Below the pieces are notes generated by a model. The model was not told where the DNA came from. It ran no database searches and worked only from the letters and a program-made list of their open reading frames with translations. Shown here piece by piece: positions 10,366-34,485 of a stretch of DNA of 44,247 nucleotides. The stretch covers positions 1 through 44,247 of the forward strand of contig JALSKD010000173.1 of assembly GCA_026989015.1 (NCBI GenBank), in the 5' to 3' direction. Made by a program: the position numbers and the translations under genes. Position 1 is the stretch's first letter, and every line of letters starts with the position of its first letter. This stretch comes from Gammaproteobacteria bacterium. GTDB taxonomy: Bacteria; Pseudomonadota; Gammaproteobacteria; GCA-001735895.

Positions 10366-11499
10366 TCAGGCCGCGGGGCCGCGGTAATAGCGCTGCGGCA
10401 CGAAAGGCAGCTTGACGACACGGATCGGCACCTGCTTGCCGCGCACCAGCGCGCGCAATTCGGTTTCCGGTTTGGCACAGCTGGTTCGTACATAGCCCAT
10501 GGCCACCGGCCCCTCGACACTGGGGCCGAAGCCGCCACTGGTAACGATGCCGACCTCGTTGTCGTCCAGGTCGAAAAGCTTCGCACCCTCGCGTACCGGC
10601 ATCCGGCCCTCGGGTTTCAGGCCGACACGCTTGCGCTCGACGCCCTCGGCGATCTGCTTCATGATGACCTCGGCACCGGGGTAGCCGCCGGGACGCGCGC
10701 CATCGGCGCGGCGGGATTTCGACAGGGCCCACAACAGGCTGGCTTCCACCGGCGTGGTGTGCTCGTCGAGATCGTGTCCGTAGAGGCAGAGACCGGCTTC
10801 GAGGCGCAGGGAATCGCGCGCGCCGAGCCCCACCCATTCCACCTCGACCTGTGCCAGCAGGGTGCGCGCCAGCCGCTCGGCATTGTCGTTGTGCACGGAA
10901 ATCTCGAAACCGTCCTCGCCGGTATAGCCGCTGCGGGTGACGAAACAATCGATGCCGTCGATGTTCAGTTCGGCTGCGGTCATGAACACCCTATCACGGG
11001 TATCGGGCGCCAGGCGCGCCATCACCGCTCCGGCCTCCGGTCCCTGCAATGCCAGCAGGGCGTGGTCGTCCAGCGGTTCGATCGTACACGCGTCACCGAT
11101 CCCGGTGCGCATCAGTTCGGTGTCCTGTGCCTTGCAGGCGGCATTGACCACCACGAACAGGTGATCGCCGGCGTTGGTGATCATCAGATCGTCCAGTATG
11201 CCGCCACGCTCGTTGGTGAACAGGGCGTAGCGCTGCTTCATCGGCGGCAGATCGACCACATCCACCGGTACCAGACGCTCCATCGCCGCGGCGGCGCCCT
11301 CGCCTTTCAGCTTCAGCTGCCCCATGTGCGACACATCGAACAGGCCGGCGGAGCGGCGGGTATGCAGGTGCTCCTTGACGATGCCCATCGGGTACTGCAC
11401 CGGCATCGCATAGCCGGCAAAGGGCACCATTTTCGCGCCCGCCTCCAGATGCAGCTCATGAAGGGCAGTGTGTTGCAGGGATTCGTTGTGTTCGCTCAT
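10366..11499 (-). CDS. gcvT: Aminomethyltransferase, glycine cleavage T protein
   Basis: The 377-residue T protein releases ammonia from aminomethyl-lipoyl-GcvH and makes 5,10-methylene-THF. Visible signatures are HTALHELHLEAGAKMVPFAGY at the N terminus, the SAGLFDVSHMGQLKLKG block, the substrate/folate region GYTGEDGFEISV and the C-terminal RYYRGPAA. Length is close to the family norm (~365). Its ATG overlaps the stop of the regulator gene by 4 nt, placing the regulator in the same transcript. Confidence 0.96.
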   Translation of the reverse strand: MSEHNESLQHTALHELHLEAGAKMVPFAGYAMPVQYPMGIVKEHLHTRRSAGLFDVSHMGQLKLKGEGAAAAMERLVPVDVVDLPPMKQRYALFTNERGGILDDLMITNAGDHLFVVVNAACKAQDTELMRTGIGDACTIEPLDDHALLALQGPEAGAVMARLAPDTRDRVFMTAAELNIDGIDCFVTRSGYTGEDGFEISVHNDNAERLARTLLAQVEVEWVGLGARDSLRLEAGLCLYGHDLDEHTTPVEASLLWALSKSRRADGARPGGYPGAEVIMKQIAEGVERKRVGLKPEGRMPVREGAKLFDLDDNEVGIVTSGGFGPSVEGPVAMGYVRTSCAKPETELRALVRGKQVPIRVVKLPFVPQRYYRGPAA

Positions 11500-12191
11500 G
11501 GGGATGACTCCTCGGGGTTGCCGGCGGCAAACGGCCGGCCATTGGAACGGATCGAAAGGTCATCGGACGGCGTGCAGACCCAGAGGATCTCGGCATCCTG
11601 TTCGCTTTCGGAAACACAGACATGACCCATGCCCGCGTCGTAATAGATACTGTCGCCGACACCCAGCGATACCGGCTCGTAGAATTCGCTGTAGAAGACG
11701 ATGCGCCCCGACAGGACCAGCAGAAACTCCTCGCCGGAATGACGCACCCAGTCGGGGAAATCCTCGAAGCGCCGCGCATGCACCACCGACTTGAAGGGCA
11801 CCATGCGCTTGTGCGTCAGCTCGGTGGCCAGCAGCTCATGGTCATAGGTAGTGGTCGGGTGGGGCCGGCCCTCGCCGGCGCGTGTCACCGTGCGGCGACC
11901 GGAAGCCAGCGGCTCCTGGCTGGGCTGGAACAGCTGCGGAATATCGATGCCCAGACCGGCCGCCAGCTTCTGCACCACCTCGAAGGATGGCGACACCTGT
12001 TCGTTCTCGATCTTCGACAGGGTGGATTTGGCCAGCCCGGTACGGCGGCTGACATCGTCCAGCGTCAGGCCGTGGCTGCGCCGCAGCTCGCGCACCTTCT
12101 CGCCCAGCTTGAGCGGCTGGAACACCGTCTCGGACGGCTGCCCGGAGGCATCCGGCCGGTCGGACTGTTGATCGAAAGCGGGGCTGGACAT
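11496..12191 (-). CDS. XRE-family regulator with C-terminal cupin domain
   Basis: The 231-residue protein has an N-terminal helix-turn-helix (about residues 28-85: LGEKVRELRRSHGLTLDDVS, then TGLAKSTLSKIENEQVSP) and a C-terminal cupin_2 sensor (about 135-205, with HSGEEFLLVLSGRI and YYDAGMGHVCVS). Such XRE-cupin proteins control amino-acid, polyamine or osmolyte catabolism in proteobacteria and bind a small ligand in the cupin. It is the first gene of the glycine operon and overlaps gcvT by 4 nt, so it is probably the autoregulating operon-specific regulator, with glycine or a related metabolite as the likely signal (inference). GAAAC/GTTTC half-sites lie in its upstream region. Confidence 0.88.
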   Translation of the reverse strand: MSSPAFDQQSDRPDASGQPSETVFQPLKLGEKVRELRRSHGLTLDDVSRRTGLAKSTLSKIENEQVSPSFEVVQKLAAGLGIDIPQLFQPSQEPLASGRRTVTRAGEGRPHPTTTYDHELLATELTHKRMVPFKSVVHARRFEDFPDWVRHSGEEFLLVLSGRIVFYSEFYEPVSLGVGDSIYYDAGMGHVCVSESEQDAEILWVCTPSDDLSIRSNGRPFAAGNPEESSP

Positions 12192-12332: not shown

Positions 12333-13274
12333 TCAGCCCCTGCCCACCCGGCGGCGCGCAATGGCCAGACCGAACAGGCCGGTGCCCATCAGCAACCACA
12401 GCCCCGGCTCGGGAACACTGACCGGCGAATGCTGGACATTGCCGGCAATCGGCGACCCCTGGACGCCGTTCGGATCGCCAAACTGGGAGTAGGCAGAAAC
12501 TCCGTCGTAGTACCCGCACTCACCCTCAACCTCAGCGATCTCCGAATAACAGCCGTCATCACCATAGCCGTCACCGTAGCCGCCGGCCTCCGGCGTAAAG
12601 ACGCCGGCGGCGGCGGTATAGATGTCATAGGTCAGCGTAAAACTCTCGCCGGCGGCAAACACACCAAGATCTAGCGTATCGCTCAGGCCATCCCAGGAAT
12701 AGTACTCGCCTCCCGTAAAGCTGCCCAGCACTTCACCCTCGGTGGTCAGCGTGGTGCCGGTATCATTGGTCAGCAGCCAGGCTGCGCTGCTGAAAAGATC
12801 CACTCCGTCGAGCGAGATACTGACCAGATTTCCGGCCCCGACGAACTCACCGGCATCCAGGGTATCTCCCCAAGGACCGTACGCGGAAAGCGAACCCTGC
12901 AGGATGGTAAAATCGAAGCTGTAGTTCTGATCGACACCCGTGTCGTTGGTAATGGTCAGCGACTGCTGAACATGGCTGACGGACTTGAAGGTATTGTCGC
13001 CACCGGCCGTAGTGTACATCCAGCCGTCCTGATTGGCAGCAGCAGTGGCCCAGGCATAGTTGGAGTTGTCATAGTCATTTGCATAGCCGGAGTAGATACT
13101 GCCACTGGTCACGGAAGTTTCACTGGCTGCAAGCTCGGCCAGGATGGGGTCGATATCCAGATCGGTATTGCCGATTTCAACGGCTGCGCCGGCGGTGAGG
13201 GTGGCGGCTTGCGCCGTCATGGAGGCCAGACCGAAGCCCGCGGCCAGGACGAGCTGTGTCATTTTCTGATTCAT
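12333..13274 (-). CDS. PEP-CTERM sorting-domain protein
   Basis: A 313-residue secreted protein. The start at 13272-13274 follows a GAAGGGAAG ribosome site; a longer frame to 13322 lacks one. Residues 1-24 (MNQKMTQLVLAAGFGLASMT, cut after AQA) form the signal peptide. The middle is acidic, rich in G, S, T, D and Y, with few Lys, and holds a short YGDGYGDDGCYSE stretch with Cys residues. The C-terminal ~25 residues are a textbook PEP-CTERM signal: VPEPGLWLLMGTGLFGLAIA followed by RRRVGRG, for processing by exosortase EpsH/XrtA. Such proteins are surface or floc-matrix components linked to exopolysaccharide. The gene is alone, with its own terminator and an apparent sigma-54 promoter. Exact function unknown. 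Confidence 0.92.
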   Translation of the reverse strand: MNQKMTQLVLAAGFGLASMTAQAATLTAGAAVEIGNTDLDIDPILAELAASETSVTSGSIYSGYANDYDNSNYAWATAAANQDGWMYTTAGGDNTFKSVSHVQQSLTITNDTGVDQNYSFDFTILQGSLSAYGPWGDTLDAGEFVGAGNLVSISLDGVDLFSSAAWLLTNDTGTTLTTEGEVLGSFTGGEYYSWDGLSDTLDLGVFAAGESFTLTYDIYTAAAGVFTPEAGGYGDGYGDDGCYSEIAEVEGECGYYDGVSAYSQFGDPNGVQGSPIAGNVQHSPVSVPEPGLWLLMGTGLFGLAIARRRVGRG

Positions 13275-13347
13275 GTGTCTTCCCTTCGTATTATGTGATG
13301 GAGCAGATACGCGACCTGACAAATCCGTCGCAACGTCCGATTATTCA

Positions 13348-13568: not shown

Positions 13569-14909
13569 ATGAACACCCTACCCGGCCTGACACTGGGCCT
13601 TGCCCTGGCCCTGGGCGCAAGCTTTGCCGCCCCGGCCCAGGCGATCGAAAATACGCTGGTTGTGGTTACATCCTTTCCCAAGGATCTGACCCGCAAGTTC
13701 AAGACGGCCTTCGAGAAGAAATACCCCGGCACCCGGGTGGAGATGCTGAAGAAAAAGACCACCGCCGGCATCAAGTACATCCAGGAGACCGCGGGCAACA
13801 ATTCCTCGGACCTGTTCTGGGCCTCGGCGCCGGATGCCTTCGAGGTGCTCAAGGGCGACGGCCTGCTGGCGAAATACAGCCCGAACGCGCCGGGCATACC
13901 GGACAAGGTCGGCGCCTACCCGATCAATGATCCGGATGGCTACTACAGCGGCTTTGCCGCTGCCGGGTACGGCATCATGTGGAACACACGTTACCTGAAG
14001 GCGAAGAAACTGCCCGAGCCCAGAGAATGGGAAGACCTGGAAAAGGCGGTCTATCACGGCCATGTGGGCATGTCCGCGCCGTCGCGTTCCGGCACCACCC
14101 ACCTGACCGTGGAAACCCTGCTGCAGGGCGACGGCTGGGAGCAGGGCTGGGCCAAGTGGAAGTTCATCGCCGGCAACTTCAAGACCGTCACCGAGCGCAG
14201 CTTCGGCGTGCCCGACGGCGTCAACAGCGGTGACTTCGGTATCGGTATCGTCATCGACTTCTTCGGCCTGTCGTCCAAGGCCAGCGGCTTCCCGGTGGAA
14301 TTCATCTACCCGTCGGTGACCACGCTGGTACCGGCCAATGTCGGTGTCATCAACAATGCGCCGCATCCACAGGCGGCGCGGGCCTTCATCGATTTCCTGC
14401 TGTCGGACGAGGGACAGACCATCCTGCTCGACAAGAAGATCATGCGCCTGCCGGTCAACCCAAAGGTCTATGCCAAGGCACCGCCCGACTTCCCTAACCC
14501 GTTCAAGGACAGTTCCATCGGTTCGGCGGTGAAGTTCGATGTGTTGCTGTCCAAGGCGCGCTACAACCTGGTCAATTCGATGTTCGATGTGATGATCACC
14601 TACCGTCTGGATGACCTGCGCAACGCGGTCAAGGCCATCCAGGTCGCCGAGGCGAAGCTGGCCGGCAACGCCAACCCGAAGGCGCAGGCCCTGATCGACG
14701 AGGCCCGCGCGCTGGTCGCGGCGCTGCCGATCACCGAGGCCCAGGCGGCCGACCCGGCCTTCGCCGGCATCTTCAAGAAGAAGCGCAAGAAGGCCACCGA
14801 CACGGTCACCGGCCGTCAGGCCGAGGTCGAACAGCAGTGGGATGAGTTCGTCAAGGCCAACTACGCCAAGGCGCGAAAGCTGGCCGAGCAGGCCGCCTCC
14901 ATGCTCTGA
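13569..14909 (+). CDS. ABC importer periplasmic substrate-binding protein
   Basis: The ATG at 13569 follows a strong AAAGGAGG ribosome site; the longer upstream frame runs through the control region. Residues 1-25 form a signal peptide ending in AQA. The mature start NTLVVVTSFPKDLTRKFKTA and the NSSDLFWASAPDAFEVL segment are typical of family-1 solute-binding proteins of the ferric-iron/PgtC type (type II periplasmic fold). At 446 residues it is ~100 longer than usual: from about residue 345 onward the tail is helical, Ala/Lys-rich (KKKRKKATDTVTGRQAEVEQ). It leads a four-gene set with permease, ATPase and cytochrome c. The ligand (Fe3+, a phosphorylated organic acid or other) cannot be deduced. 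Confidence 0.85.
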   Translation: MNTLPGLTLGLALALGASFAAPAQAIENTLVVVTSFPKDLTRKFKTAFEKKYPGTRVEMLKKKTTAGIKYIQETAGNNSSDLFWASAPDAFEVLKGDGLLAKYSPNAPGIPDKVGAYPINDPDGYYSGFAAAGYGIMWNTRYLKAKKLPEPREWEDLEKAVYHGHVGMSAPSRSGTTHLTVETLLQGDGWEQGWAKWKFIAGNFKTVTERSFGVPDGVNSGDFGIGIVIDFFGLSSKASGFPVEFIYPSVTTLVPANVGVINNAPHPQAARAFIDFLLSDEGQTILLDKKIMRLPVNPKVYAKAPPDFPNPFKDSSIGSAVKFDVLLSKARYNLVNSMFDVMITYRLDDLRNAVKAIQVAEAKLAGNANPKAQALIDEARALVAALPITEAQAADPAFAGIFKKKRKKATDTVTGRQAEVEQQWDEFVKANYAKARKLAEQAASML

Positions 14910-14967: not shown

Positions 14968-16656
14968 ATGAGTGTCGCCCGCCACCCCGGCCAGAGCCTG
15001 CTGTTCTGGCTGATTGCCCTGTTCCTGTTGTCCTTCCTGGTGATCCCGGTGGTGCAGGTGTTCTTCGTGGCCTTCGTCGATGTCAACAGCGGCGGCTTCA
15101 CGCTGGTCAATTTCCTCGATTTTTTCCGTTCGTCGCTGTTCCGCGAGTCTTTCTACAACTCTTTCTATGTGGCGGCGATGTCGGTGCTGGTGGCCAGCGC
15201 CATTGCCCTGCCGCTGGCCTATTTCACCACCCGTTTCGAGTTCAAGGGCTCGGTGATCATCCAGAGCCTCGGCTTCGTGCCACTGATCATGCCGCCGTTC
15301 GTCGGCGCGGTGGCCATGCAGCTGCTGTTTGGCGAGAACGGCAGCATCAACCTGCTGCTCGACGAATACCTGGGCTTTACCGTACCGTTCATGAAAGGGC
15401 TCAATGGCGTCATCTTCGTGCAGAGCATCCATTACTTTCCGTTCATCCTGATCAACCTGTCGGCCTCACTGAACAACATCGACCGTTCGATGGAGGAATC
15501 GGCACAAAACCTGGGCAGCTACGGCATGCGCCTGTTCCGGCGCATCGTATTCCCGCTGGCGATGCCCGGCTATGTGGCCGGGGCCTCGCTGGTGTTCCTC
15601 AAGGTGTTCGACGATCTGGGCACGCCACTGCTGCTGAATGTCAACAACATGCTGGCGCCCCAGGCCTATCTGCGCATCTCGTCCATCGGCATCGACGACC
15701 CGATGGGCTATGTGATTGCGGTGATCCTGGTCGTGTTCTCGCTGTTTGCGATGTGGATCGCCTCGCTGGCGCTGCGCGGCAAGGATTACTCGATGATCCA
15801 GAAGGGCGGCGGCGGACTGGCCAAGCGACGCATGCGCCCCTGGGAGAAGGTCATCGCCTACGCCATCGTGCTGTTGATCCTGCTGCTGGTGCTGTCCCCC
15901 CATATCGGGCTGACCCTGCTCTCCTTCGGTACCATCTGGTCCTACAGCGTGCTGCCCGACGGCTTCACCACCGAGCATTATGCAGAGGTGTTCCGCGAAA
16001 CCCCGGAATACATGCTCAATACCCTGCTCTACGCCTCGCTGGCGGCCACCCTGGACATCATCCTCGGCACCGCCATCGCCTGGCTGGTCTTGCGCAGCAA
16101 GCTGCGCCTGCGCCACTGGCTGGACTACATCGCGATGGCGGCGCTGGCGGTGCCCGGTCTGGTGCTGGGCATCGGTTACCTGCGCAGTTTCCTCGGCGTC
16201 AACATCCCCTTCGGTGACCGACCGCTGGCCACCTGGTGGGTGATGCTGGTGATCGCACTGGCGATCCGCCGCCTGCCCTATGCCCTGCGCGCCTGCAACT
16301 CGGCGCTGCACCAGGTCAGCCGCGCACTGGAAGAGGCCGGCGAGAACCTGGGCGCCAGCCGCATGCGCACCATCTGGCGGGTCACCGTGCCGCTGATGGC
16401 CGGCGGCATCCTGGCCGGCTTCGTCACCAGCTTCGCCACCGCCGCGGTGGAGCTCTCGGCCACACTGATGCTGGTGTCCACCGAGTCGGATGCGCCGCTG
16501 TCCTATGGCATCTATGTCTTCATGCAGTCGGCGGCCGGGCGCGGGCCAGGCGCCGCCCTGGGCATGGTGGCGGTACTGATCGTCGCCACCGGCACCTACC
16601 TGTCGCACCGCATCATCGAAAAGAGCCGTCGTGAACGCAGCTTTGAAAGGGTCTGA
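14968..16656 (+). CDS. ABC importer permease, fused two-domain (FbpB type)
   Basis: This 562-residue inner-membrane protein contains two BPD_transp_1 domains in one chain, each about six membrane helices. The cytoplasmic EAA loops that touch the ATPase are visible in both halves: MEESAQNLGSYGMRLFRRIV near residue 173 and LEEAGENLGASRMRTIWRVT near 453. A polar linker (KGGGGLAKRRMRPWEK) separates the halves. The fused layout is usual for ferric-iron, thiamine and phosphonate-type importers. The ATPase gene starts 2 nt after the stop, so the two are co-translated. Confidence 0.92.
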   Translation: MSVARHPGQSLLFWLIALFLLSFLVIPVVQVFFVAFVDVNSGGFTLVNFLDFFRSSLFRESFYNSFYVAAMSVLVASAIALPLAYFTTRFEFKGSVIIQSLGFVPLIMPPFVGAVAMQLLFGENGSINLLLDEYLGFTVPFMKGLNGVIFVQSIHYFPFILINLSASLNNIDRSMEESAQNLGSYGMRLFRRIVFPLAMPGYVAGASLVFLKVFDDLGTPLLLNVNNMLAPQAYLRISSIGIDDPMGYVIAVILVVFSLFAMWIASLALRGKDYSMIQKGGGGLAKRRMRPWEKVIAYAIVLLILLLVLSPHIGLTLLSFGTIWSYSVLPDGFTTEHYAEVFRETPEYMLNTLLYASLAATLDIILGTAIAWLVLRSKLRLRHWLDYIAMAALAVPGLVLGIGYLRSFLGVNIPFGDRPLATWWVMLVIALAIRRLPYALRACNSALHQVSRALEEAGENLGASRMRTIWRVTVPLMAGGILAGFVTSFATAAVELSATLMLVSTESDAPLSYGIYVFMQSAAGRGPGAALGMVAVLIVATGTYLSHRIIEKSRRERSFERV

Positions 16657-16658
16657 CC

Positions 16659-17726
16659 ATGTCCGTACGCATCGAACTGAACAACATTGACCTCTCCTAC
16701 GGCACTACCCGCGTCATCAAGCAGGTCAGCCTGGTCATCGAACCGGGTGAATTCTTCGCCTTTCTCGGCCCGTCCGGCTGTGGGAAATCGACCCTGCTGC
16801 GGCTGATCGCCGGTTTCGAACAGTGCCAGCAGGGTGATGTGCTGATCGACGGCCGGCGCGTCAACGACCTGCCGCCCTGGCAGCGCGAGGTGGGCATGGT
16901 GTTCCAGAACTATGCCCTGTGGCCGCACATGACCATTCGTCGCAATGTCGCCTTCGGCCTGGAAGAGCGCCGTCTGCCGAAAGAGGAAATCAACCGCCGC
17001 GTCGATGCGGCGCTGGAGCGCGTCGGCCTGCTCGACTATGCCGAACGGCGGCCCAACCAGCTGTCCGGCGGCCAGCAGCAGCGGGTGGCGCTGGCGCGCA
17101 CGCTGGCCATCGAACCGAAGGTGTTGCTGCTCGACGAGCCGCTGTCGAACCTGGACGCCAAGTTGCGCATCCACATGCGTCAGGAGCTGCTCGCGCTGCA
17201 GCGCGAGCTGGATCTGACCACCATATTCGTTACCCACGACCAGGAGGAAGCCAACACCACTTCCGACCGCATTGCCGTGCTGGAAGACGGCGTGGTGCAA
17301 CAGGTAGGCGCGCCGATGGCACTCTACGACCGACCGGACAACCTGTTCGTGGCCCAGTTCCTGGGCAGCGCCAATGTAGTGCGCGGCCAGGTCAGTGAAT
17401 GCGATGGCCGTCCCTGTTTCGTCAGCGAAGGCGGGCTGGAACTGCCGCTGCCCGACGATCTCGGGAACCCCAACCGCGTACAGGCACTGGTGTTCCGCCC
17501 GCAAAACCTGTTGCGCTGCGACGAAAACGACCCGGCGGCCCTGTTCGCCGGCGAGGTGAAACTGCGCGAGTTCCTCGGCAACATCGTGCGCTATGAAATC
17601 GAGGTCCAAAGCGAACGCTTGCTGCTCGACGAACTCTACGGGCGCGGACTCGCCCCGGCTTCCCCGGGCGAGCGCATCGGACTGTCCATCGACCCGCGCG
17701 ACCTGCGGCCAATGACGAATGCCTGA
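16659..17726 (+). CDS. ABC importer ATP-binding protein
   Basis: The 355-residue ATPase has Walker A GPSGCGKSTLLRLIAG (near residue 38), Q-loop VFQNYALWPHM, signature LSGGQQQRVALARTLA, Walker B VLLLDEPLSNLDAKLR and the switch His in FVTHDQEEA. A C-terminal ~110-residue regulatory domain follows (TOBE-like region), as in FbpC/PotA-type importers. It energises uptake through the preceding permease. The cytochrome gene begins 79 nt downstream on the same strand. Confidence 0.93.
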   Translation: MSVRIELNNIDLSYGTTRVIKQVSLVIEPGEFFAFLGPSGCGKSTLLRLIAGFEQCQQGDVLIDGRRVNDLPPWQREVGMVFQNYALWPHMTIRRNVAFGLEERRLPKEEINRRVDAALERVGLLDYAERRPNQLSGGQQQRVALARTLAIEPKVLLLDEPLSNLDAKLRIHMRQELLALQRELDLTTIFVTHDQEEANTTSDRIAVLEDGVVQQVGAPMALYDRPDNLFVAQFLGSANVVRGQVSECDGRPCFVSEGGLELPLPDDLGNPNRVQALVFRPQNLLRCDENDPAALFAGEVKLREFLGNIVRYEIEVQSERLLLDELYGRGLAPASPGERIGLSIDPRDLRPMTNA

Positions 17727-17805: not shown

Positions 17806-18489
17806 ATGAGCCGATTGCCCGTTGTACGACTGGCCCTGCTGGGCTTGGCCGTCTTTTCCACCGCCCAGGCCCAGAACCCGGACACCGGACGCTGGTACAG
17901 CGCCGAACAGCTGGAACGCGGCAAACAGGTGTTCGCTGAGAACTGCGCCGCCTGCCACGGCCCCGATGCAGCCTCCACGCCGGACTGGAAAAAGACCGAC
18001 GCCAACGGCAAGTACCCGCCGCCTCCGCTCGATGGCAGCGCCCATGCCTGGCACCACGACCTGGAGCTGCTGCGGCGCACGGTGCGCGAGGGCGGTGTGA
18101 AGATCGGTGGACAGATGCCGCCGTTCGAAGACCGTCTGTCGTCCGAGGACATCGATGCCGCGATCAGCTATTTCCAGTCCAAGTGGCCCGACGAGACCTA
18201 CCGCAAATGGGCCGGCCGTTTCCCGCCCGATGGACGCATGCCCTCGCTGGACGACATCGAGCGGCTGGCCCGCGGGGAAAATGCCCCCGGAGCGGCATCA
18301 GGCCCGCGGCTGGACTACCTGGAAAAACGGCTTGGACGCAGTGTACCCGGCCCGGCCGACAAGACCCGCCTGCCCGGCCTCTACCGGGTGGAGGTGGGCG
18401 GCAAGACCGTGTTCCTCAGCGAGGATGGCGAGGTTGCGATCATCGGCGACATGATCGACCTGAAACAAGGCCTGCGCATCGGACGCTGA
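17806..18489 (+). CDS. Periplasmic cytochrome c with C-terminal DsbC_N-like domain
   Basis: A 227-residue exported protein. The signal peptide (residues 1-22) ends in AQA. One heme-c site is present, C47-A-A-C50-H51, and the GGQMPPFEDRL segment supplies a likely axial Met104, so residues ~30-125 form a class-I monoheme cytochrome domain. The C terminus (about 185-227) reads LPGLYRVEVGGKTVFLSEDG and then VAIIGDMIDLKQGLRIGR, which resembles the N-terminal dimerisation domain of DsbC/DsbG disulfide isomerases, here without any thioredoxin domain. Directly downstream of the ABC importer, so it may act in the same periplasmic pathway. The cytochrome call is firm; the DsbC_N-like assignment is by eye. 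Confidence 0.88.
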   Translation: MSRLPVVRLALLGLAVFSTAQAQNPDTGRWYSAEQLERGKQVFAENCAACHGPDAASTPDWKKTDANGKYPPPPLDGSAHAWHHDLELLRRTVREGGVKIGGQMPPFEDRLSSEDIDAAISYFQSKWPDETYRKWAGRFPPDGRMPSLDDIERLARGENAPGAASGPRLDYLEKRLGRSVPGPADKTRLPGLYRVEVGGKTVFLSEDGEVAIIGDMIDLKQGLRIGR

Positions 18490-18530: not shown

Positions 18531-20066
18531 ATGAAACCCTGGTTCCGCCTGACCCACCTGCAGTTTTCGCTGATCCTCGTCACCGCCGTCTTCGCGGCGG
18601 CCAACGCGATCAACATCGACCGCCTGAGCCGCTGGTTCGAGGTCGGCGGACGACTGGATCTGCTGCCCCTGGTCGCGCTGCTCGTGTTCGGTCTGGGCTT
18701 TTCCATCGCCTTCTTCCTGCTGTTCTTCGCCCACCGGCTGCTGATCAAGCCAATGGCGATCGCCCTGGTCGCCACCAGTGCCATGGCCAGTTACTTCATC
18801 GCCAAGTACGATATTGCGGTGGACAGCACCATGGTGCTCAACACGCTGCACACGGATCCCACCGAGGTTTCCGGTCTGCTGTCCTGGCAGATGCTGCCCT
18901 GGGCGCTGCTGATGATCGCGTTGCCGGTAGCCCTCATCCTCAAGACCGAAATCCGCTTCGTCCGTGGCCCGCGCTACCTGCTGTCATCGGTGGCAGTGGC
19001 TGTCGTCGCGCTCGCTATCGGCATCGGCGGGGTCTATGCCCATTACGACAGCATCCACCGCGCCGGCAATGTCTCCAACAAGTACATCCTGCACCAGCTG
19101 ACCCCGGTCAATGTCCTGCGCAGCCTGGCCAGCGTGCTGCTGGCACAGGGCCAGCAGGTCTATGCCCGTTACCGCAAGCCGGTGGTCATCGAAGGGCGGA
19201 TCACCACGCCGGAAGACCTGCTGGTGGTGCTGGCCATCGGCGAATCCGCGCGGCAGAAGAATTTCAGCCTCTACGGTTACGACCGAGTCGAGACCAATCC
19301 CCTGCTGAAACAGGTTGAAGGCCTGCACGCACTCGATGGCAGGGCCGAGATCGGCACCACCCTGCTGGCCCTGAAGGAGATCCTGCGCAAGGGCGACTAC
19401 CGCCTGACCGCCATTACCGACACACTGGGCATCCCCACAACCTGTCTGGTCAACTTCACCCTCTACGACAACTGCGAGCCGGTACCCGAACTGCGCGCCA
19501 CGGACTGCGGGCACGGCGGCACATGCTATGACGAGGATGTTCTGCCGCTGTTCGATGCGTTTCTGCAGAAACATGCCGGCCGCCAGCGGCTGGCGGTACT
19601 CCATCTGGGGGGCGGCAGCCACGGCCCAATCTACCAGAAGCGTTTCCCTGCGGAGTTCCAGGTCTTCAAACCCCAGTGCCTGGATGCCGATGTCGGCAAT
19701 CTGTGCAACGAGGAGGAACTCTATAATTCCTACGACAACAGCATCCTCTATACCGATTTTGTATTGGCAAAACTGATCGAAAAGCTCGACACATCGGGAC
19801 AACCCTATGTGTTTATCTATGTTTCCGACCACGGAGAATCCCTGTTCGAGGAAGGGCGGGTGTTCCACGGCATGCCGCCCGGCATCGACCTGCCCGAGGA
19901 ACAGGCGCGGGTGCCACTGTTGGTGAAGGCGTCGATCCCGATCGACATCGAACCGAAGCCGTACTACACTCAGCCGGAGATCTTTGATACAGTGCTCGAA
20001 TTGTTGAATATCGATACGGATCCGAAGGATCCCGAAGGCGTGTTCATAAAGAAAAAACGACAATAA
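18531..20066 (+). CDS. EptA-like phosphoethanolamine transferase
   Basis: The 511-residue protein has an N-terminal membrane domain (about five helices, residues 10-165) and a C-terminal periplasmic alkaline-phosphatase-fold domain. Metal-site motifs are IGESARQKNFSLYGY (Glu near residue 239), LGGGSHGPIYQKRFP and VSDHGES near 433. The usual nucleophile motif with Cys before Gly-Thr is not kept; the equivalent seems to be EIGTTLLALKEI. The domain also holds several Cys (DNC, DCGHGGTCYD) likely in disulfides. Start chosen at the ATG at 18531 because the open frame upstream lies inside the cytochrome gene. Expected to move phosphoethanolamine from phosphatidylethanolamine to lipid A or another envelope glycan; the acceptor is unknown. 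Confidence 0.85.
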   Translation: MKPWFRLTHLQFSLILVTAVFAAANAINIDRLSRWFEVGGRLDLLPLVALLVFGLGFSIAFFLLFFAHRLLIKPMAIALVATSAMASYFIAKYDIAVDSTMVLNTLHTDPTEVSGLLSWQMLPWALLMIALPVALILKTEIRFVRGPRYLLSSVAVAVVALAIGIGGVYAHYDSIHRAGNVSNKYILHQLTPVNVLRSLASVLLAQGQQVYARYRKPVVIEGRITTPEDLLVVLAIGESARQKNFSLYGYDRVETNPLLKQVEGLHALDGRAEIGTTLLALKEILRKGDYRLTAITDTLGIPTTCLVNFTLYDNCEPVPELRATDCGHGGTCYDEDVLPLFDAFLQKHAGRQRLAVLHLGGGSHGPIYQKRFPAEFQVFKPQCLDADVGNLCNEEELYNSYDNSILYTDFVLAKLIEKLDTSGQPYVFIYVSDHGESLFEEGRVFHGMPPGIDLPEEQARVPLLVKASIPIDIEPKPYYTQPEIFDTVLELLNIDTDPKDPEGVFIKKKRQ

Positions 20067-20120: not shown

Positions 20121-20852
20121 ATGTTGCCCCGTTCCCTGCTCCAGCTTCTTCGCCGTTTCGATGTGCTCGCCTTCCTGCTGTGCGTGGCCGTGTTTCTGTC
20201 CTTTCCTGACATCGACCGTTACATCAGCGGCCTGTTCTACGACCCGCAAACCGGCTTCTACCTGAAACATCACCCGCTGGTTCAGGGTATCTACCACGCA
20301 ACCGGCTGGATCATGGGCGGACTTCTCATCGGCATGGTGCTGCTGTTTGCCGCCAGCTTCATTCCCCGTCTGCGCCCACGCCTGCCTTCGCGAAAGACAC
20401 TGGGCTTCCTGATCGCCGCTGCATTGCTCGGACCCGGACTGCTGGTCAACGCCACCTTCAAGGAACACTGGAAGCGCCCGCGCCCGGCCCAGATCGAGGA
20501 GTTCGGTGGTCAGTATGCGTTCTCCCCGGCGCTGATTCCCGGCAGCGAATGCAAGCGTTGCCTGTCCTTCGTCAGCGGACATGCCTCGGCCGGTTTCTAC
20601 CTGTTTACCTTCGCCCTGCTCGGCTGCCGCCGGCGCTGGCTGTGCATTCCGATCCTCGCCGGTACCGTCATAGGCGCGGCGCGCATTCTGCAGGGGGGGC
20701 ACTTCCTTGGCGATGTCGTGTTTTCCGGCTGGGTGGTCTGGTTCAGCAGCTGCCTGCTTTTCTGGCTGTTCTACGGCCGCGCCCCCTTTTCGCCGTCACT
20801 TCCTGCAACTGATCCGTATCAACCCCGGACCGCGACCAGCCTGATAGACTGA
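20121..20852 (+). CDS. PAP2-family membrane lipid phosphatase
   Basis: A 243-residue inner-membrane protein with about six helices. All three PAP2 acid phosphatase motifs are present: K114-E-H-W-K-R-P-R-P, the S152-G-H154-A-S block with the catalytic His, and R188-I-L-Q-G-G-H194-F-L-G-D with the nucleophile His. Such enzymes remove phosphate from undecaprenyl pyrophosphate, phosphatidylglycerol phosphate or lipid A (LpxE/LpxT-like). Adjacency to the EptA-like gene 54 nt upstream suggests that both remodel lipid A or recycle lipid by-products of the transferase reaction (inference). Confidence 0.9.
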   Translation: MLPRSLLQLLRRFDVLAFLLCVAVFLSFPDIDRYISGLFYDPQTGFYLKHHPLVQGIYHATGWIMGGLLIGMVLLFAASFIPRLRPRLPSRKTLGFLIAAALLGPGLLVNATFKEHWKRPRPAQIEEFGGQYAFSPALIPGSECKRCLSFVSGHASAGFYLFTFALLGCRRRWLCIPILAGTVIGAARILQGGHFLGDVVFSGWVVWFSSCLLFWLFYGRAPFSPSLPATDPYQPRTATSLID

Positions 20853-20879: not shown

Positions 20880-21611
20880 ATGAATCCTTTCCGGATCTTT
20901 CTTCACACCCTGCTGGACAGTCTGCGCGACCTGTTGCCGATCATTGCCGTGATCGGATTTTTCCAGCTGCTGGTACTGCAGCAGCCAATTCCGGATTTTC
21001 TCGAAATCTTTATCGGCGTCCTGTTCGTACTGATCGGACTCAGCCTGTTCGTGCTCGGACTGGACATGGGCCTGTTCCCGATCGGCGAGTCCATGGCCCA
21101 TGCCTTCGCCCGCAAGGGCAGCCTCGGTTGGCTGCTGATGTTTGCCTTTGCATTGGGTTTCGGCACCACGGTGGCGGAACCGGCACTGATCGCTGTGGCC
21201 GACGAAGCCGCTGCGGTGGCCGCCAACGGCCGCATGATCGAGGATGACCTCCAGTCGCGAGAGTCCTATGCCTTCGGCCTCAGGCTGACCGTCGCCGTTT
21301 CGGTCGGCCTGGCCATCGTCATCGGCGTGTTGCGCATCATCCGCGGCTGGCCAATCCAGTACCTGATCATCGGCGGCTATATCGGCGTGGTCGTCATGAC
21401 CCTGTTCGCGCCGAAGGAAATCATCGGCATTGCCTACGATTCCGGCGGGGTCACCACCTCCACCATCACCGTGCCGCTGGTCACCGCGCTCGGTGTCGGC
21501 CTGGCCCGCTCGATCAAGGGACGCAACCCGATGATCGACGGCTTCGGCCTGATCGCCTTCGCCTCGCTCACCCCGATGATCTTCGTCATGGGCTACGGAA
21601 TGCTGGTATGA
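20880..21611 (+). CDS. DUF1538 membrane protein, first subunit
   Basis: A 243-residue polytopic membrane protein of the DUF1538 family. Two blocks repeat in its partner: [16 protein letters not shown] near residue 97 and [20 protein letters not shown] near 187; these charged/polar segments between helices are probably the transport core. DUF1538 pairs have been reported in Halomonas as a two-component Na+(K+)/H+ antiporter (UmpAB); the same role is possible here. The stop overlaps the next start by 4 nt. Genes for a PII-like and a CBS protein follow, pointing to nucleotide-regulated transport. Confidence 0.82.
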
Positions 21612-22411
21612 ACGGCTTGTTCGGAGAGCTGGCCCGGGGCCTGTGGCACACCCTGCTCGACACGGTGTGGGATGTACTGCCGATCGCGATCATCATCTTC
21701 GGCTTCCAGATCCTTGTCCTGCGCAAGCCGATTCCCCAGCTGCGACGCATCATCGGCGGCTTCCTGCTGGTGCTGATCGGGCTGGCCTTCTTCCTCGAGG
21801 GGCTGGAGGCCGCGCTGTTTCCGCTCGGCAAGCTGATGGCATCCCAGCTCACCGCGCCGGAGTTTCTGGCCCCGGACGGCGACATGAGCCGGGTCAGCCA
21901 GTGGGACTACCACTGGGTGTACCTGTTTGCCTTCGCCATCGGCTTTTCCACCACCATCGCCGAACCCTCACTGCTGGCGGTGGCGATCAAGGCCAACCAG
22001 GTGTCCGCCGGCAGCATCGGCATCTGGGGCTTGCGCATCGCGGTGGCGCTGGGTGTGGCCATCGGCATCGCGCTCGGGGTGTTCCGTATCGTCACCGGCA
22101 CGCCGCTGTATTTCTACATCATCACCGGCTATGTATTCGTGCTGCTGCAGACACTGTTCGCGCCACGAATGATCGTCGCCCTGGCCTATGACTCGGGCGG
22201 CGTCACCACCTCCACCGTTACCGTACCCCTGGTGGCGGCACTGGGGCTGGGCCTGGCCAGTACCGTGCCCGGGCGCAGTCCGTTGCTCGACGGTTTCGGA
22301 CTGATTGCCTTTGCCAGCCTGTTCCCTATCATGTCGGTCATGGCCTATGCCCAGCTTTCCGAATGGATGGCCCGGCGCCGTGACCGCGTCCATCACACCG
22401 AAGAGGCCTGA
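21608..22411 (+). CDS. DUF1538 membrane protein, second subunit
   Basis: A 267-residue paralogue of the preceding protein, with the same two blocks: [17 protein letters not shown] and [20 protein letters not shown]. It has about seven predicted helices and a short basic cytoplasmic tail ([15 protein letters not shown]). The 4-nt overlap and shared motifs indicate a heteromeric membrane complex with the first subunit. Cation/proton exchange is the best guess from the reported UmpAB pair; the ion cannot be read from sequence. Confidence 0.82.
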
Positions 22412-22413
22412 AC

Positions 22414-22764
22414 ATGCACTTCAAACTGATCATTGCGCTGTCCGACGACAGCATCACCGACCGCATCGTGGAAGCGGCCCGTGAACGCGGTGCCACCGGC
22501 TCTACCGTGATCACCAGCGCCCGCGGCGAAGGCCTGAAAGCGAAGAAGACCTTCTTCGGGCTGGACCTCGAAACCCAGCGCGATGTGGTGCTGCTGCTGG
22601 TCGAGGAACACCTCAGCCGCGAGATTCTCGAAGCCATCGCCGAGGCCGGCGGCTTCGATGCCACACCTGGCACCGGGATCGCCTTCGTCATCGATGTCGA
22701 TGACGCGGTCGGGGTCAGTCACCAGGTCCAGCAACTCACCGAAATCGTGGAGAGCGAATTATGA
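22414..22764 (+). CDS. PII-like signalling protein
   Basis: A 116-residue protein with the ferredoxin-like PII fold: FKLIIALSDDSITDRIVEAA, a loop SARGEGLKAKKTFFGLDLET at the T-loop position, then VVLLLVEEHLSREILEAIAE and a C-terminal GTGIAFVIDVDDAVG. The Tyr51 uridylylation site and standard C-loop of GlnB/GlnK are absent, so it belongs to the wider PII-like group that binds other nucleotides or controls dedicated transporters. It sits 2 nt after the DUF1538 pair and overlaps the CBS gene, suggesting that it gates that transporter. Confidence 0.78.
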   Translation: MHFKLIIALSDDSITDRIVEAARERGATGSTVITSARGEGLKAKKTFFGLDLETQRDVVLLLVEEHLSREILEAIAEAGGFDATPGTGIAFVIDVDDAVGVSHQVQQLTEIVESEL

Positions 22765-23177
22765 ACGCCAACCGCCCGGTCGTGCGCGTGCGCGATGTCA
22801 TGAAAACCGACTTCGACCTGGTCGACGGTATCGACACCGTTGCCGATGCATTGCGCAAGTCGCAGCACCCCGAGAGCAAGTGCTTCATCGTCAACAAGCG
22901 TCACGCCGACGACGAATACGGCATCGTGTTGCTCTCCGATATCGCCAAGAAGGTGATCGCCCGTGACAAGTCGCCACAGCGGGTCAACATCTACGAGATC
23001 ATGACCAAGCCGGTGGTCGGGGTGGATCCGGCGATGGACATCCGCTACTGCAGCCGGCTGTTCGAGAACTTCGGCCTCAGCCGCGCGCCGGTCATTGCCG
23101 AGGGCCAGGTGATCGGCATCATCGGCTATACCGATATCGTGCTGCGTGGCCTCCGCGACGGACTCAAATCCTCATGA
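22761..23177 (+). CDS. Tandem CBS-domain protein
   Basis: A 138-residue soluble protein made of one Bateman module: CBS1 begins VRVRDVMKTDFDLVDGIDTV, CBS2 begins YEIMTKPVVGVDPAMDIRYC and ends GIIGYTDIVLRGL. CBS pairs bind adenine nucleotides or SAM and usually regulate channels, transporters or enzymes. It overlaps both neighbours by 4 nt. With the PII-like protein it gives the DUF1538 transporter two potential nucleotide sensors. Confidence 0.9.
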   Translation: MNANRPVVRVRDVMKTDFDLVDGIDTVADALRKSQHPESKCFIVNKRHADDEYGIVLLSDIAKKVIARDKSPQRVNIYEIMTKPVVGVDPAMDIRYCSRLFENFGLSRAPVIAEGQVIGIIGYTDIVLRGLRDGLKSS

Positions 23178-23740
23178 CACGCCTGCTCCTGCTGCTGCTC
23201 GTACCCGGCCTGGCCGTGGCCGGAGTCATCCGTGGCGAGGATGAAAACGGCCTGAAAAGCTGGGAAATGCAACAGGGCGCCCTGTCGCTGAAACTGATCC
23301 AGCGCCTGCCGGACCAGACCCGCGCCTTCTTTCTCGCACGCGGCTTCCCCAAGGCCGAAGCCGACCGCATCGCCACCGCCTGCGTGCTGCAAACCATCGG
23401 CCGCAACACCTCAAGCGCCGAACAGCCGGTGAGTCTGGAATACGACCTGCACGACTGGCGTTTGCGTTACAACGAACGACTCCGGGAAATCCGCTACAAG
23501 GAAGACTGGGCACGGGACTGGAACGACCGCAACGACTTTCCCGAAGCGGCGCGCATCGCCTTTCGCTGGGCCACTTTCCCGACCGCACAGCAATTCGAGC
23601 CCGGCGGAGACTACAACTGGGGCATGACCAGCTTTGGCCTGCCGCCCGGCAGCCGGTTTGACCTGAATGTGCGCTGGCGCGAGAATGGCCAGCCCCAAAG
23701 CGCCTGGATCGAGGACATCACATGCCCGCACGACCGCTGA
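23174..23740 (+). CDS. Exported protein of unknown function
   Basis: No family was recognised. The 188 residues start with a signal peptide (MTRLLLLLLVPGLAVAG). The mature part is polar, with a helical segment LIQRLPDQTRAFFLARGFPK, an isolated Cys in ATACVLQTIGRN, a Trp/Arg-rich stretch (HDWRLRYNERLREIRYKEDW) and a C-terminal Cys in EDITCPHDR. Two Cys in an exported protein could form a disulfide, and a TlpA-like thioredoxin gene overlaps the 3' end by 19 nt. The start overlaps the CBS gene by 4 nt, so it belongs to the DUF1538 operon. Confidence 0.75.
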   Translation: MTRLLLLLLVPGLAVAGVIRGEDENGLKSWEMQQGALSLKLIQRLPDQTRAFFLARGFPKAEADRIATACVLQTIGRNTSSAEQPVSLEYDLHDWRLRYNERLREIRYKEDWARDWNDRNDFPEAARIAFRWATFPTAQQFEPGGDYNWGMTSFGLPPGSRFDLNVRWRENGQPQSAWIEDITCPHDR

Positions 23741-24246
23741 CCCTGCTGTGGACCGCCCTGCTTGCCGGACTGCTGCTGGCCCTGCCCGCCTCGGCCGCGC
23801 GCCAGGACATGAAAGCCATCACTCCACGCATCATCGCCCCGCTCGTGCAGATGACCGACATGGATGGCGAGCCACAGAACCTCTCCGACCTGCGCGGCAA
23901 GGTTGTCATCGTCAACTTCTGGGCCACCTGGTGTCCTCCCTGCCGCGCGGAATTGCCCTCGATGAACCGCGCCTGGAAAAAGCTGGACCCCGACCGCTTC
24001 GCGATGTTGGCGATCAATGTCGGCGAGGACGAGGACACCATCTTCTCCTTCATGGGCGACTACCCGATCGACTTCCCGGTCTGGCTCGATCAGAGCGGCA
24101 AAGCCGCGCGCCAGTGGCCGCTGCGCGGCCTGCCCACCACCTATGTGCTCGACACGCGCGGCCGTATCGCCTACCGCGCCATTGGCGGCCGCGAATGGGA
24201 TGACGAGACCCTGCTGCAGAAGGTACGGGCGCTGGCCGACGAGTAA
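23722..24246 (+). CDS. TlpA/ResA-like periplasmic thioredoxin
   Basis: A 174-residue exported thioredoxin-fold protein. The signal peptide ends near ALPASAA (residue ~26). The active site is C71-P-P-C74 in VNFWATWCPPCRAELPSMN, and RGLPTTYVLDTRGRI carries the cis-Pro. CPPC proteins of the TlpA/ResA/CcmG type reduce specific periplasmic disulfides, for example during cytochrome c or copper-site maturation. It overlaps the unknown exported protein by 19 nt, suggesting that the latter or another envelope protein is its client. Confidence 0.9.
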   Translation: MPARPLTLLWTALLAGLLLALPASAARQDMKAITPRIIAPLVQMTDMDGEPQNLSDLRGKVVIVNFWATWCPPCRAELPSMNRAWKKLDPDRFAMLAINVGEDEDTIFSFMGDYPIDFPVWLDQSGKAARQWPLRGLPTTYVLDTRGRIAYRAIGGREWDDETLLQKVRALADE

Positions 24247-28434: not shown

Positions 28435-28938
28435 TCAGAAGCGCCCCTTGCCTCCGTGGGTAATATAGTCCTGAAGCGCCATCTGCTGCCGCCCTATGTC
28501 GGCCAGCGTGTGGTGCACCCGCTTGATGACCGCGCGCATGAAGTCGAACATGACCCTGGGATGTTCTGTGATGAGCGGCCGGATATCGTCGGCCTTGAAG
28601 CTGAGCACACGCGCATCACCCAGCGCCATGACCGACGCAATATGAGGTGTATCGTCGATGAAGCTCAGCTCGCCGACCAAGTCACCCTTCTCGAGCACAT
28701 GGAGTATCCTCGGCTTTTCCCCTTTGCCTCTCTCCTTCACCACCGCCAGCCGGCCTTCGGCGACGATGTACAGACAGTGTTCCAGATCTCCTTGGTGGAA
28801 CAGGAACTCACCGTCCTTGAGCACACGTTCACAGCAGGCCCGTTCTGCCAGTATGCGCGCACCTTCCTTGCCAATGTAGTGGCCTATGGGGGCATCAAGA
28901 ATCAGTTTTTCGACATGTTCGATATCAGGTTTGTTCAT
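28435..28938 (-). CDS. hoxI: HoxI-like cyclic-nucleotide-binding-fold hydrogenase subunit
   Basis: A 167-residue protein with one cNMP-binding beta-roll (FLFHQGDLEHCLYIVAEGRL, LEKGDLVGELSFIDDTPHIA) and no helix-turn-helix, so it is not a transcription factor. It is the last gene of the hox operon, overlapping hoxW by 4 nt. The same order hoxFUYHWI occurs in Ralstonia eutropha, where HoxI is a CRP-like subunit bound as a dimer to the soluble hydrogenase and provides an NADPH-dependent activation site. Size and place match well. The residues that contact cAMP phosphate in CRP are not convincingly kept. Confidence 0.8.
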   Translation of the reverse strand: MNKPDIEHVEKLILDAPIGHYIGKEGARILAERACCERVLKDGEFLFHQGDLEHCLYIVAEGRLAVVKERGKGEKPRILHVLEKGDLVGELSFIDDTPHIASVMALGDARVLSFKADDIRPLITEHPRVMFDFMRAVIKRVHHTLADIGRQQMALQDYITHGGKGRF

Positions 28939-29462
28939 GCTTGACTCCGCTTCGATTCAAAAGGATGGGGTGAGCGCGGCGCAAGACAGGCCTGCGCCGC
29001 GCCAAGGTTCTTTTGCGCCCGGGGGGTGAGCCCCTGCTTCAGTTCCCAGGCATAGCCCCGCAGCACCAGCAGGCGCGCCTCGGGCAGGTAACCGAAGCAC
29101 TGCGCGCAGGTCGCCAGCAGGGCAGGAATGGACAGGGCGTGGGAGGTGAAGCTGAAATCCATCGCCGGACGCGGGCATTCGACGCGGAAGTCCGTCACCG
29201 ATGGGTCGCGGGTGGCGTCCACGAACAGCACCTTCCGCTGATGACGGAGCAGGTCGGCGTCCTCCAGCTGCAGCTGGTAGTGCCGCTGCCGGGCCGCCGA
29301 GGGACAGAGGCCCGCTTCTTCCAGCCAGTCGATGAAGGCCCAGCCCAGGCCGTCGTCCTGCCGCCCCACATTGCCGATGCCGTAGATCAGGCAATCCGCA
29401 TGATCGTAATCGGCCAGATCCAGCGGGGCCGATGCGGCCCGGGCTTCAGCGCAGGCGCTCAT
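28935..29462 (-). CDS. hoxW: Hydrogenase maturation endopeptidase HoxW
   Basis: 175 residues from the ATG at 29460-29462; an upstream ATG would add seven residues deep in hoxH. The N-terminal strand YGIGNVGRQDDGLGWAFIDW carries the GxGNxxRxDDG(L)G motif, whose Asp binds nickel; a second ligand region VLFVDATRDPSV and a His in SFTSHALSIPALLA follow, as in HycI/HoxW proteases. It cuts the C-terminal peptide from HoxH once nickel is inserted. It overlaps hoxH by 17 nt and hoxI by 4 nt. Confidence 0.9.
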   Translation of the reverse strand: MSACAEARAASAPLDLADYDHADCLIYGIGNVGRQDDGLGWAFIDWLEEAGLCPSAARQRHYQLQLEDADLLRHQRKVLFVDATRDPSVTDFRVECPRPAMDFSFTSHALSIPALLATCAQCFGYLPEARLLVLRGYAWELKQGLTPRAQKNLGAAQACLAPRSPHPFESKRSQA

Positions 29463-30918
29463 CGAGCACCCTCCCTTCGGCATCCTGCACGGTCACCTGC
29501 AACGGCATCTGGCCCATGGCGTGGGTGGCGCAGCTCAGGCAGGGGTCGTAGGCGCGGATGCCCACCTCGATGGCGTTCATCATGCCCTCGGTAATCTCCG
29601 CCCGGCCGCCCAGATAGGCCTCGGCCACCGAACGCACGGTGCGGTTCATCACGGCGTTGTTCTGGGTAGTGGCCACCACCAGGTTGGCGAAGGTGATGGC
29701 GCCCTGGGCGTCGGCGCGGTAATGGTGCAGCAGCGTGCCCCGCGGGGCTTCCACCACGCCGACGCCCTCGCCGGTCCAGGCGGCCTCGCCCGGCTCGATC
29801 ACCAGCGGCCCCTCCAGCAGGTCCGGATCCTCGAGCAGCTCGCGGATCAGCTCCGCCGAGTGCAGGATCTCGATGGCCCGCGCCCAGTTGGTGTGCAGGA
29901 TCATGTCGTTGGCCTTGCCGCCGGTGTAGTCATGGAAGCGCTCCAGTTCCGCCTGGGCCAGGGGCGCGTTGTCGCCATAGCTCCGGGTGACATTGACCCG
30001 GCCCAGGGGGCCCACCCGCAGGGCACCCGCCTCGCGCCCCAGTGACCTAAGATAGGGAAACTTCATGTAGCTCCACTCCTCGGTGGCCTCGGCGAAGTGT
30101 TCGAGGTAGTCGTGGTAGTCGAATTCGGCGACGGTGTCCCGATTGCCGTCGACGATGCGGATCCTGCCGTGGTAATAGTCTACATTGCCCTGTTCGTCCA
30201 CCAGCGACATGTTGAGCGCCGGCACCTTGGCGAAGCTGTCCACCTCCCTGCGGTGCTTTTCATGGAAATTGTGGAACAGGCGCACCCCCTCCAGGGCGTG
30301 TTCGATGACCTGATCCACGGAGAGCAGGCCCGGCTCGCCCTTGAGCAGCCGGTCCCGCTCCCGGGCATCGAGGCGCTTGTTGACGCCGCCCGGCACCGAG
30401 GCGATGCCGTGCATGCGCTTGCCAAAGACCGTCTTGATCACCTCTTGTCCCCATTTGCGCAGGGCCACCACGCGCTTGACCAGCTCCGGGTTGGCTTCCA
30501 CCAGCCCCAGCACATTGCGTTTCTCCGGCGGCGCGTCCATGCCGAACAGCATTTCCGGTACGATCAGGTAGAAATAGGCCGTGGTGTGGGACTGAAGCTG
30601 CTGCCCGTAGTGCCCCAGGCGGCGCAGCTTTTCCGGCGTCGGCAGCATCTCCACGCCGCTGGCGTAGCCGGCGCCGATGATGTCGTCCAGGGCCTTGGCG
30701 CCACACAGGTGGTGACTGACGAAACAGATGCCGCAGATGCGCTGCAACAGCATCGGGGCTTCCCAGAAGGGATGGCCGTGGACGAATTCCTCGAAACCGC
30801 GGAATTCCACCACATGCAGCCTGGCGTCGGTGACGCGGTTGTTCTCGTCCAGCTGGACGGTGACCTTGCCGTGCCCCTCGATGCGGGTCACGGGGTCGAT
30901 GACCAGTTTCCGGCTCAT
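29446..30918 (-). CDS. hoxH: NAD-reducing NiFe hydrogenase large subunit HoxH
   Basis: 490 residues from the ATG at 30916-30918; the open frame upstream belongs to hoxY sequence. N-terminal KLVIDPVTRIEGHGKVTVQL is universal in NiFe large subunits. Nickel ligands are C62 and C65 in QRICGICFVSHHLC and C460/C463 in DPCLSCATH. Cleavage after H466 would release a 24-residue tail (AMGQMPLQVTVQ...), the same tail length as Ralstonia HoxH. It forms the active site that splits or makes H2 as part of the cytoplasmic group 3d enzyme. The accessory hyp genes are not in the window. Confidence 0.96.
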   Translation of the reverse strand: MSRKLVIDPVTRIEGHGKVTVQLDENNRVTDARLHVVEFRGFEEFVHGHPFWEAPMLLQRICGICFVSHHLCGAKALDDIIGAGYASGVEMLPTPEKLRRLGHYGQQLQSHTTAYFYLIVPEMLFGMDAPPEKRNVLGLVEANPELVKRVVALRKWGQEVIKTVFGKRMHGIASVPGGVNKRLDARERDRLLKGEPGLLSVDQVIEHALEGVRLFHNFHEKHRREVDSFAKVPALNMSLVDEQGNVDYYHGRIRIVDGNRDTVAEFDYHDYLEHFAEATEEWSYMKFPYLRSLGREAGALRVGPLGRVNVTRSYGDNAPLAQAELERFHDYTGGKANDMILHTNWARAIEILHSAELIRELLEDPDLLEGPLVIEPGEAAWTGEGVGVVEAPRGTLLHHYRADAQGAITFANLVVATTQNNAVMNRTVRSVAEAYLGGRAEITEGMMNAIEVGIRAYDPCLSCATHAMGQMPLQVTVQDAEGRVLDERLR

Positions 30919-30931
30919 GACGCTTGCCTCC

Positions 30932-34058: not shown

Positions 34059-34485
34059 GTTGGCATCCTCCATCTGAATAATACCCGACACCAGTCCATG
34101 TCACCCTCAGCCACCGCTGATTGAACTTCAAAAAGAACGGGACATAAGACAAAAACCAGCACTTTGTTGCGCTTCTTGCCAATGGAATCATCATTGCCTG
34201 CAAAGCACGCCGCGTTCTGATTTTTGTCTGACATCCTGATGGTTGCATGGATTGGTGCAGGGTTAACAGAAACAAGCAAGGTTCAAACCAGCATAAAGAA
34301 AGCCAATTGATTCCTGACGATTACTTTCCATGACGCGAGAAACGGCGGTACTCAACCAGGCAGTTTGCAAACCATAGTGCATACTTGGTAACCGAATCCA
34401 CTTCCTCCCGACAGCCCAGTAATCCATTGCCAACTCAAACAGAAGAAATTAAGGTAATGCACCCCAAGATGAATATCACCCTACC
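34059..34485. other. Divergent hox / metal-exporter control region
   Basis: A 427-bp AT-rich stretch without a recognisable gene, between divergent hoxF and the CDF exporter. It contains a sigma-54-like site at 34275-34290 on the minus strand. No clear metal-regulator (MerR or ArsR-type) operator or good sigma-70 promoter was identified for the exporter. Confidence 0.5.
34275..34290 (-). promoter_or_regulatory. Candidate sigma-54 promoter of hoxFUYHWI
   Basis: The minus strand reads TGGTTTGAACCTTGCT, with the invariant GG/GC at exact -24/-12 spacing and TTGCT intact, but three mismatches in the CAC part. It would start ~205 nt before hoxF. Ralstonia hox operons are transcribed by RpoN with HoxA, which makes the site credible. 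Confidence 0.5.

Follow-up and report, generated by a model that had tools for sequence, protein, structure and literature searches.

Disulfide isomerases depend on being held in the reduced state, a task that normally falls to DsbD. The isomerases DsbC and DsbG carry an N-terminal dimerisation domain (DsbC_N, PF10411; structures 1eej and 2iyj) along with a catalytic thioredoxin domain and its CxxC, and it is the dimerisation domain type that recurs in the protein described here, although without the catalytic domain or CxxC and on the C-terminal side of a cytochrome. With the class I cytochromes c (c6, c552 and the CcoP-type domain) our protein shares CxxCH, a probable Met ligand and the fold, but it differs from them in having an oligomerisation domain as well as the conserved motif HxWHH. 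A further parallel, at the level of function, applies only to longer relatives of the protein: the copper-sensitivity suppressor ScsC shows that a disulfide isomerase equipped with an oligomerisation module of its own can have a task in copper stress (PMC5524982, PMC8900818), but ScsC is heme-free and trimerises through an N-terminal helical region, whereas our protein has no isomerase domain. Those longer relatives, full cytochrome c–DsbC fusions from the same bacterial family, likewise have an exported cytochrome c followed by DsbC_N, but they continue into the DsbC thioredoxin fold with a CPYC motif, and several of them lie beside copper-resistance genes; our protein ends after DsbC_N and sits elsewhere. 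The cytochrome and DsbC_N domains are each already known. A limited search of the open-access literature found no description of a cytochrome c–DsbC fusion or of a "headless" form of one, an absence that is no proof of novelty.

The protein is encoded in the window (the whole stretch of 44,247 nucleotides that was analysed) by an open reading frame with an in-frame ATG and a Shine-Dalgarno-like GAGGGA. Its features are as follows.

17806..18489, + strand: cytochrome c–DsbC_N protein (the "short" form), 227 aa (ORF and translation, Pfam, AF2, Foldseek)
17806..17874, + strand: predicted Sec signal peptide, residues 1-23 (...STAQAQ), by eye from the translation
17944..17958, + strand: heme c attachment motif CAACH, residues 47-51 (translation; C47, C50 and H51 invariant across 21 aligned sequences)
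18043..18057, + strand: HAWHH motif, residues 80-84 (conservation)
18115..18117, + strand: Met104, probable axial heme ligand, in a GGxMP motif (invariant in the same 21 sequences)
18322..18471, + strand: DsbC_N dimerisation domain, residues 173-222 (PF10411; structural match to 1eej/2iyj; dN/dS 0.21)

The initial annotation had read from this sequence a CAACH heme site, a C-terminal DsbC/DsbG-type dimerisation domain and the absence of a thioredoxin domain, and all three readings hold. In Pfam searches the N-terminal part matches Cytochrome_CBB3 (PF13442, 2.2e-13, residues 35-122) and PF00034 (2.9e-11), and in an AlphaFold monomer model of the complete chain (built on an alignment with 20 relatives, mean pLDDT 80) Foldseek matches it to cytochromes c6 and c552 (c552 9vr0, c6 1ls9). 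By its CxxCH, distal ligand and fold, the protein is a class I (CBB3-type) cytochrome c. A linker separates the cytochrome from the tail, which in the whole protein matches DsbC_N at 2.0e-8 (residues 173-222; 34.1 bits versus a gathering score of 25) and reaches 37.6 bits when searched alone. The tail of the whole-protein model aligns with E. coli DsbC (1eej) over 51 columns with an rmsd of 1.7 Å and a probability of 1.00; a further match is the isolated DsbC dimer domain (2iyj). Modelled alone, the tail finds DsbC entries as its best matches, 1eej and 2iyj first, with a TM of 0.58 and weak E-values of 0.09-0.2, as expected for only 67 residues. The comparison with PF10411 by profile and structure that had been proposed for the tail thus identifies a DsbC_N domain by profile cut-off and fold match, with a resemblance far beyond chance. 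The protein stops five residues past this domain, at the domain edge; Pfam finds no match to a thioredoxin family within it, and the DNA behind it holds no DsbC catalytic domain. Lacking the catalytic domain and its CxxC, it is not a disulfide isomerase of the DsbC/DsbG kind.

The initial annotation did not recognise the wider family to which the protein belongs. Four related forms occur in the window genome and its relatives: the short form, the full fusion, a fusion with tandem DsbC_N domains and the stand-alone cytochrome. Short forms, consisting of cytochrome and DsbC_N only, are found in the window, G001, G002, G004 and G010, with two more in G008 and G016. Full fusions (about 365-390 residues) run from cytochrome c through DsbC_N to the thioredoxin fold with CPYC, and Pfam finds Cytochrom_C, DsbC_N and Thioredoxin_2 in a single chain. 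They are present in the window genome and in most members of its bacterial family, and outside it they were seen in G097, G233 (both of a second family) and G328 (of a third); a scan at 1e-50 of 399 genomes spread over the phylum gave no further full fusion. The copy in the window genome (contig G000:C16; L057:9816-10940, 374 aa) is 49% identical to the window protein over residues 26-224. Two tandem DsbC_N domains are found in the fusions at L048:9995-11374, L184 and L044:5005-6237, the last of which has lost the active-site CxxC, replaced by SSVSSRK. The stand-alone cytochromes (about 140-180 residues) are spread more widely in the class. Directly upstream of many full fusions and of one short form lies a small second cytochrome c with the motif KGPPLxHPFYKPSHHxD (L037, 123 aa; L036; L065; others), a possible electron partner.

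In a tree built from cytochrome plus DsbC_N, the five short forms that share a common gene block make up one clade (100/98) with full fusions around it, and in a cytochrome-only tree, which rests on few columns, short and full forms fall into one starred clade of 30 (96/94). The window protein thus shares the descent of both its domains with the full fusions, and since the five short forms are nested among these, the simplest history is that it arose from a fusion by loss of the catalytic part. The short forms of G008 and G016 may, with weak support, represent separate losses of that domain. We ruled out that the short gene is a frameshifted full fusion: at 1e-3 to 1e-4, no remains of the catalytic domain were found in any frame of the DNA around the five short genes. 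Remnants of the short gene in G012 and G014, and its loss in G006, might be taken to mean that the gene is itself decaying and without function. We disfavour this reading as very improbable, given that the gene is intact in five genomes of two genera and that dN/dS, comparing the window with G001 of the same genus, stays well under 1 in the cytochrome (0.12) and in DsbC_N (0.21), with 0.31 in the linker; the remaining DsbC_N tail is under purifying selection.

The explanation that we favour, with slightly better than even confidence, is that the window protein descends, in headless form, from a cytochrome c–DsbC fusion and most likely acts as a dimeric one-electron carrier in the periplasm. 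The chain would have been cut back to the edge of the dimerisation domain, with loss of the catalytic thioredoxin fold, and the gene stands in a different gene block. The short protein would be exported and take up one heme c of the His/Met type, its DsbC_N domain would either hold two hemes together or dock the cytochrome onto another DsbC_N protein, and it would have no disulfide-exchange activity of its own. In favour of this explanation are the recurrence in relatives of the same two domains followed by a CPYC catalytic domain, and the invariance of the heme ligands. Dimer formation is a reasonable expectation because the invariant glycine of the tail's GDxxDL motif aligns, in a profile alignment, with the glycine of IIQGPMYDV in E. 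coli DsbC, which we take to be critical for DsbC dimerisation. Also invariant among the 21 sequences, in fusions and stand-alone cytochromes, are H80, W82, H83 and H84 (H-x-W-H-H), which may form a second metal site. Counting against the headless-fusion explanation are the modest match of the isolated tail model to DsbC (TM 0.58, E 0.09) and the decay or loss of the gene in three relatives (G006, G012 and G014), where its function is therefore dispensable. We infer the dimerisation, the electron-carrier role and the partners of the short form, and its conserved neighbours do not single out any one protein as electron donor or acceptor.

Alternatively, the short form may act as a non-catalytic heme subunit in mixed dimers with the full fusion or with ordinary DsbC, drawing electrons from the isomerase or supplying it. 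The window genome does encode both candidate partners beside the short form (the full fusion on G000:C16 and a stand-alone DsbC on G000:C175), and the DsbC_N domain of the short form is 41% identical to that of its own DsbC. However, the full fusion was not found in the match lists of G002, G004 and G010 despite the presence of the short form there, so that only ordinary DsbC could be a general partner, and we regard mixed dimers as unlikely. More speculative still is the idea that one group of Gammaproteobacteria couples its periplasmic DsbC-type isomerases to heme c, and that the short form, as a non-catalytic heme subunit pairing with DsbC or the full fusion, would serve as an electron link between the thiol-disulfide pool and respiration.

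The surroundings of the short gene in the window include the following genes.

11496..12191, - strand: cupin-HTH regulator, divergent block boundary (comparison with relatives)
13569..14909, + strand: substrate-binding protein of an ABC importer (SBP_bac_6/8; Pfam/NCBIfam profiles)
14968..16656, + strand: fused double permease of the importer (profile matches)
16659..17726, + strand: ATPase of the importer, with TOBE_2 (profile matches)
18531..20066, + strand: EptA-like phosphoethanolamine transferase (Pfam, comparison with relatives)
20121..20852, + strand: LpxF-like PAP2 phosphatase, inserted with the EptA-like gene (Pfam, comparison with relatives)
20880..22411, + strand: pair of DUF1538 membrane proteins, UmpAB type (Pfam for the first; the second is paralogous)
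22414..23177, + strand: P-II-like protein and CBS protein (Pfam, relatives)
23174..24246, + strand: secreted 188-aa protein (23174-23740), then a TlpA-like thioredoxin (Pfam, relatives)

A better description of the locus is that of a shared block comprising cupin-HTH regulator, importer, cytochrome, UmpAB-type antiporter, PII, CBS and TlpA-like thioredoxin. In G004 and G010, glycine-cleavage genes and the cupin-HTH regulator occupy one strand, and the other carries the cytochrome, the two DUF1538 genes, PII, CBS, the 188-aa protein and the TlpA-like thioredoxin; G002 has the same order as far as the CBS gene. The DUF1538 pair directly follows the short cytochrome in these three genomes. The window corresponds to the G004/G010 frame into which two pieces have been inserted, the importer ahead of the cytochrome and the EptA-like/PAP2 pair behind it; the latter pair was not seen between cytochrome and DUF1538 in the compared relatives. 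No DUF1538 gene was found in the G001 genome. The conserved secreted 188-aa protein has no Pfam match and adjoins the TlpA-like thioredoxin in several genomes. The UmpAB-type DUF1538 pair followed by PII-like and CBS genes (20880-23177 in the window) is conserved across several families, and the combination suggests a regulated antiporter; UmpAB is a Na+(Li+,K+)/H+ antiporter in Halomonas (PMC5484666), a function that offers no obvious role for a heme protein. Elsewhere in the window are a PEP-CTERM protein (12333-13322, between the cupin-HTH regulator and the importer) and minus-strand [NiFe] hydrogenase genes with an aldehyde ferredoxin oxidoreductase-like gene (28935-34091 and 36576-38573).

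The complete same-strand ABC importer that the initial annotation placed upstream of the cytochrome is there, with binding protein, double permease and ATPase all present and a gap of 79 bases between ATPase and cytochrome. The pathway that it proposed for the two fares less well. A cytochrome serving the importer, by handling the redox state of a metal or sulfur compound as its ligand, would fit the position of the importer genes just ahead of the cytochrome in the window and in G001 (where permease, ATPase, cytochrome, 188-aa protein and thioredoxin follow in order), as well as the cytochrome remnants behind the importer in G012 and G014. However, each is found without the other in several relatives: the short cytochrome has no adjoining importer in G002, G004 and G010, and importer and DUF1538 block are present in G006, G012 and G014 with the cytochrome gene between them gone (G006) or reduced to remnants (G012 and G014, with an intact importer). 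G054, from another family, has a 69%-identical binding protein with permease and ATPase and no cytochrome alongside. The tree also nests the short cytochrome among proteins without an adjoining importer. Cytochrome and importer thus do not stay together in the neighbourhood survey, a result that comes close to refuting the pathway; their linkage is not conserved, and because it fails in both directions we rejected the importer as the main functional partner and regard this reading as improbable. The remnants in G012 and G014 imply that the two genes once neighboured more widely, and since importer-only and cytochrome-only loci both occur, the pair goes back to a common ancestral locus in two genera from which each was lost independently. 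We give the importer no ligand, its closest NCBIfam models (2-aminoethylphosphonate transport proteins) scoring far below their cut-offs. An OsmC-like gene (sub-threshold, E 0.02) lies between the importer ATPase and DUF1538 in G006, G012 and G014 (L133:6828-7244, L134, L135).

The full fusion of G000:C16 is a more interesting protein of the family than the short form. It belongs to a copper-resistance operon (L057:3682-13218) in which CopA multicopper oxidase, CopB, SHOCT-like, VTT-domain and CcdA-type (DsbD_TM) proteins come before it and, on its other side, a copper-exporting P-type ATPase follows. Copper markers (at least one of copper ATPase, CopA multicopper oxidase and CopB) accompany 8 of the 32 full fusions and 12 of the 32 stand-alone cytochromes versus 0 of 18 control loci (p = 0.039 for full fusions alone and p = 0.004 for fusions and stand-alone cytochromes together, with controls mostly from the same genomes, loci that are not phylogenetically independent and many short contigs). 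DUF411 or cupredoxin-like genes adjoin the fusion or cytochrome at further loci. No copper marker is present at any of the five short-form loci (a small sample; p = 0.31 versus the other forms), and neighbourhood places only part of the full fusions and stand-alone cytochromes in copper resistance. A MerR gene beside some stand-alone cytochromes was rejected as CueR, the CueR, ZntR and MerR models scoring alike and all below cut-off. One subgroup of full fusions (L180, L181, L182, L185, L189) lies outside any copper operon, in the order ftsK-lolA-rarA-(methyltransferase)-fusion-sdhCDAB, and its position between rarA and sdhCDAB means that copper is not the sole context.

The short form might nevertheless retain, from its different locus, what was presumably the ancestral function of the family in copper or thiol-oxidative stress of the periplasm. 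The copper markers near its longer and stand-alone relatives and the invariant HxWHH motif argue for such a role, but with no copper genes at its five loci, few as these are, we set it aside as the main reading and keep it as a rival of low probability. By likelihood, we rank mixed dimers with DsbC or the full fusion ahead of a retained copper-stress role, and the latter ahead of service to the importer.

Whatever the role of the short form, the fusion of a cytochrome to DsbC, sometimes beside a DsbD-like CcdA protein and a copper-exporting ATPase, suggests either another electron route or a dedicated unit for copper-stress repair, and in the headless form nature provides a way to see what the dimerisation domain does alone.
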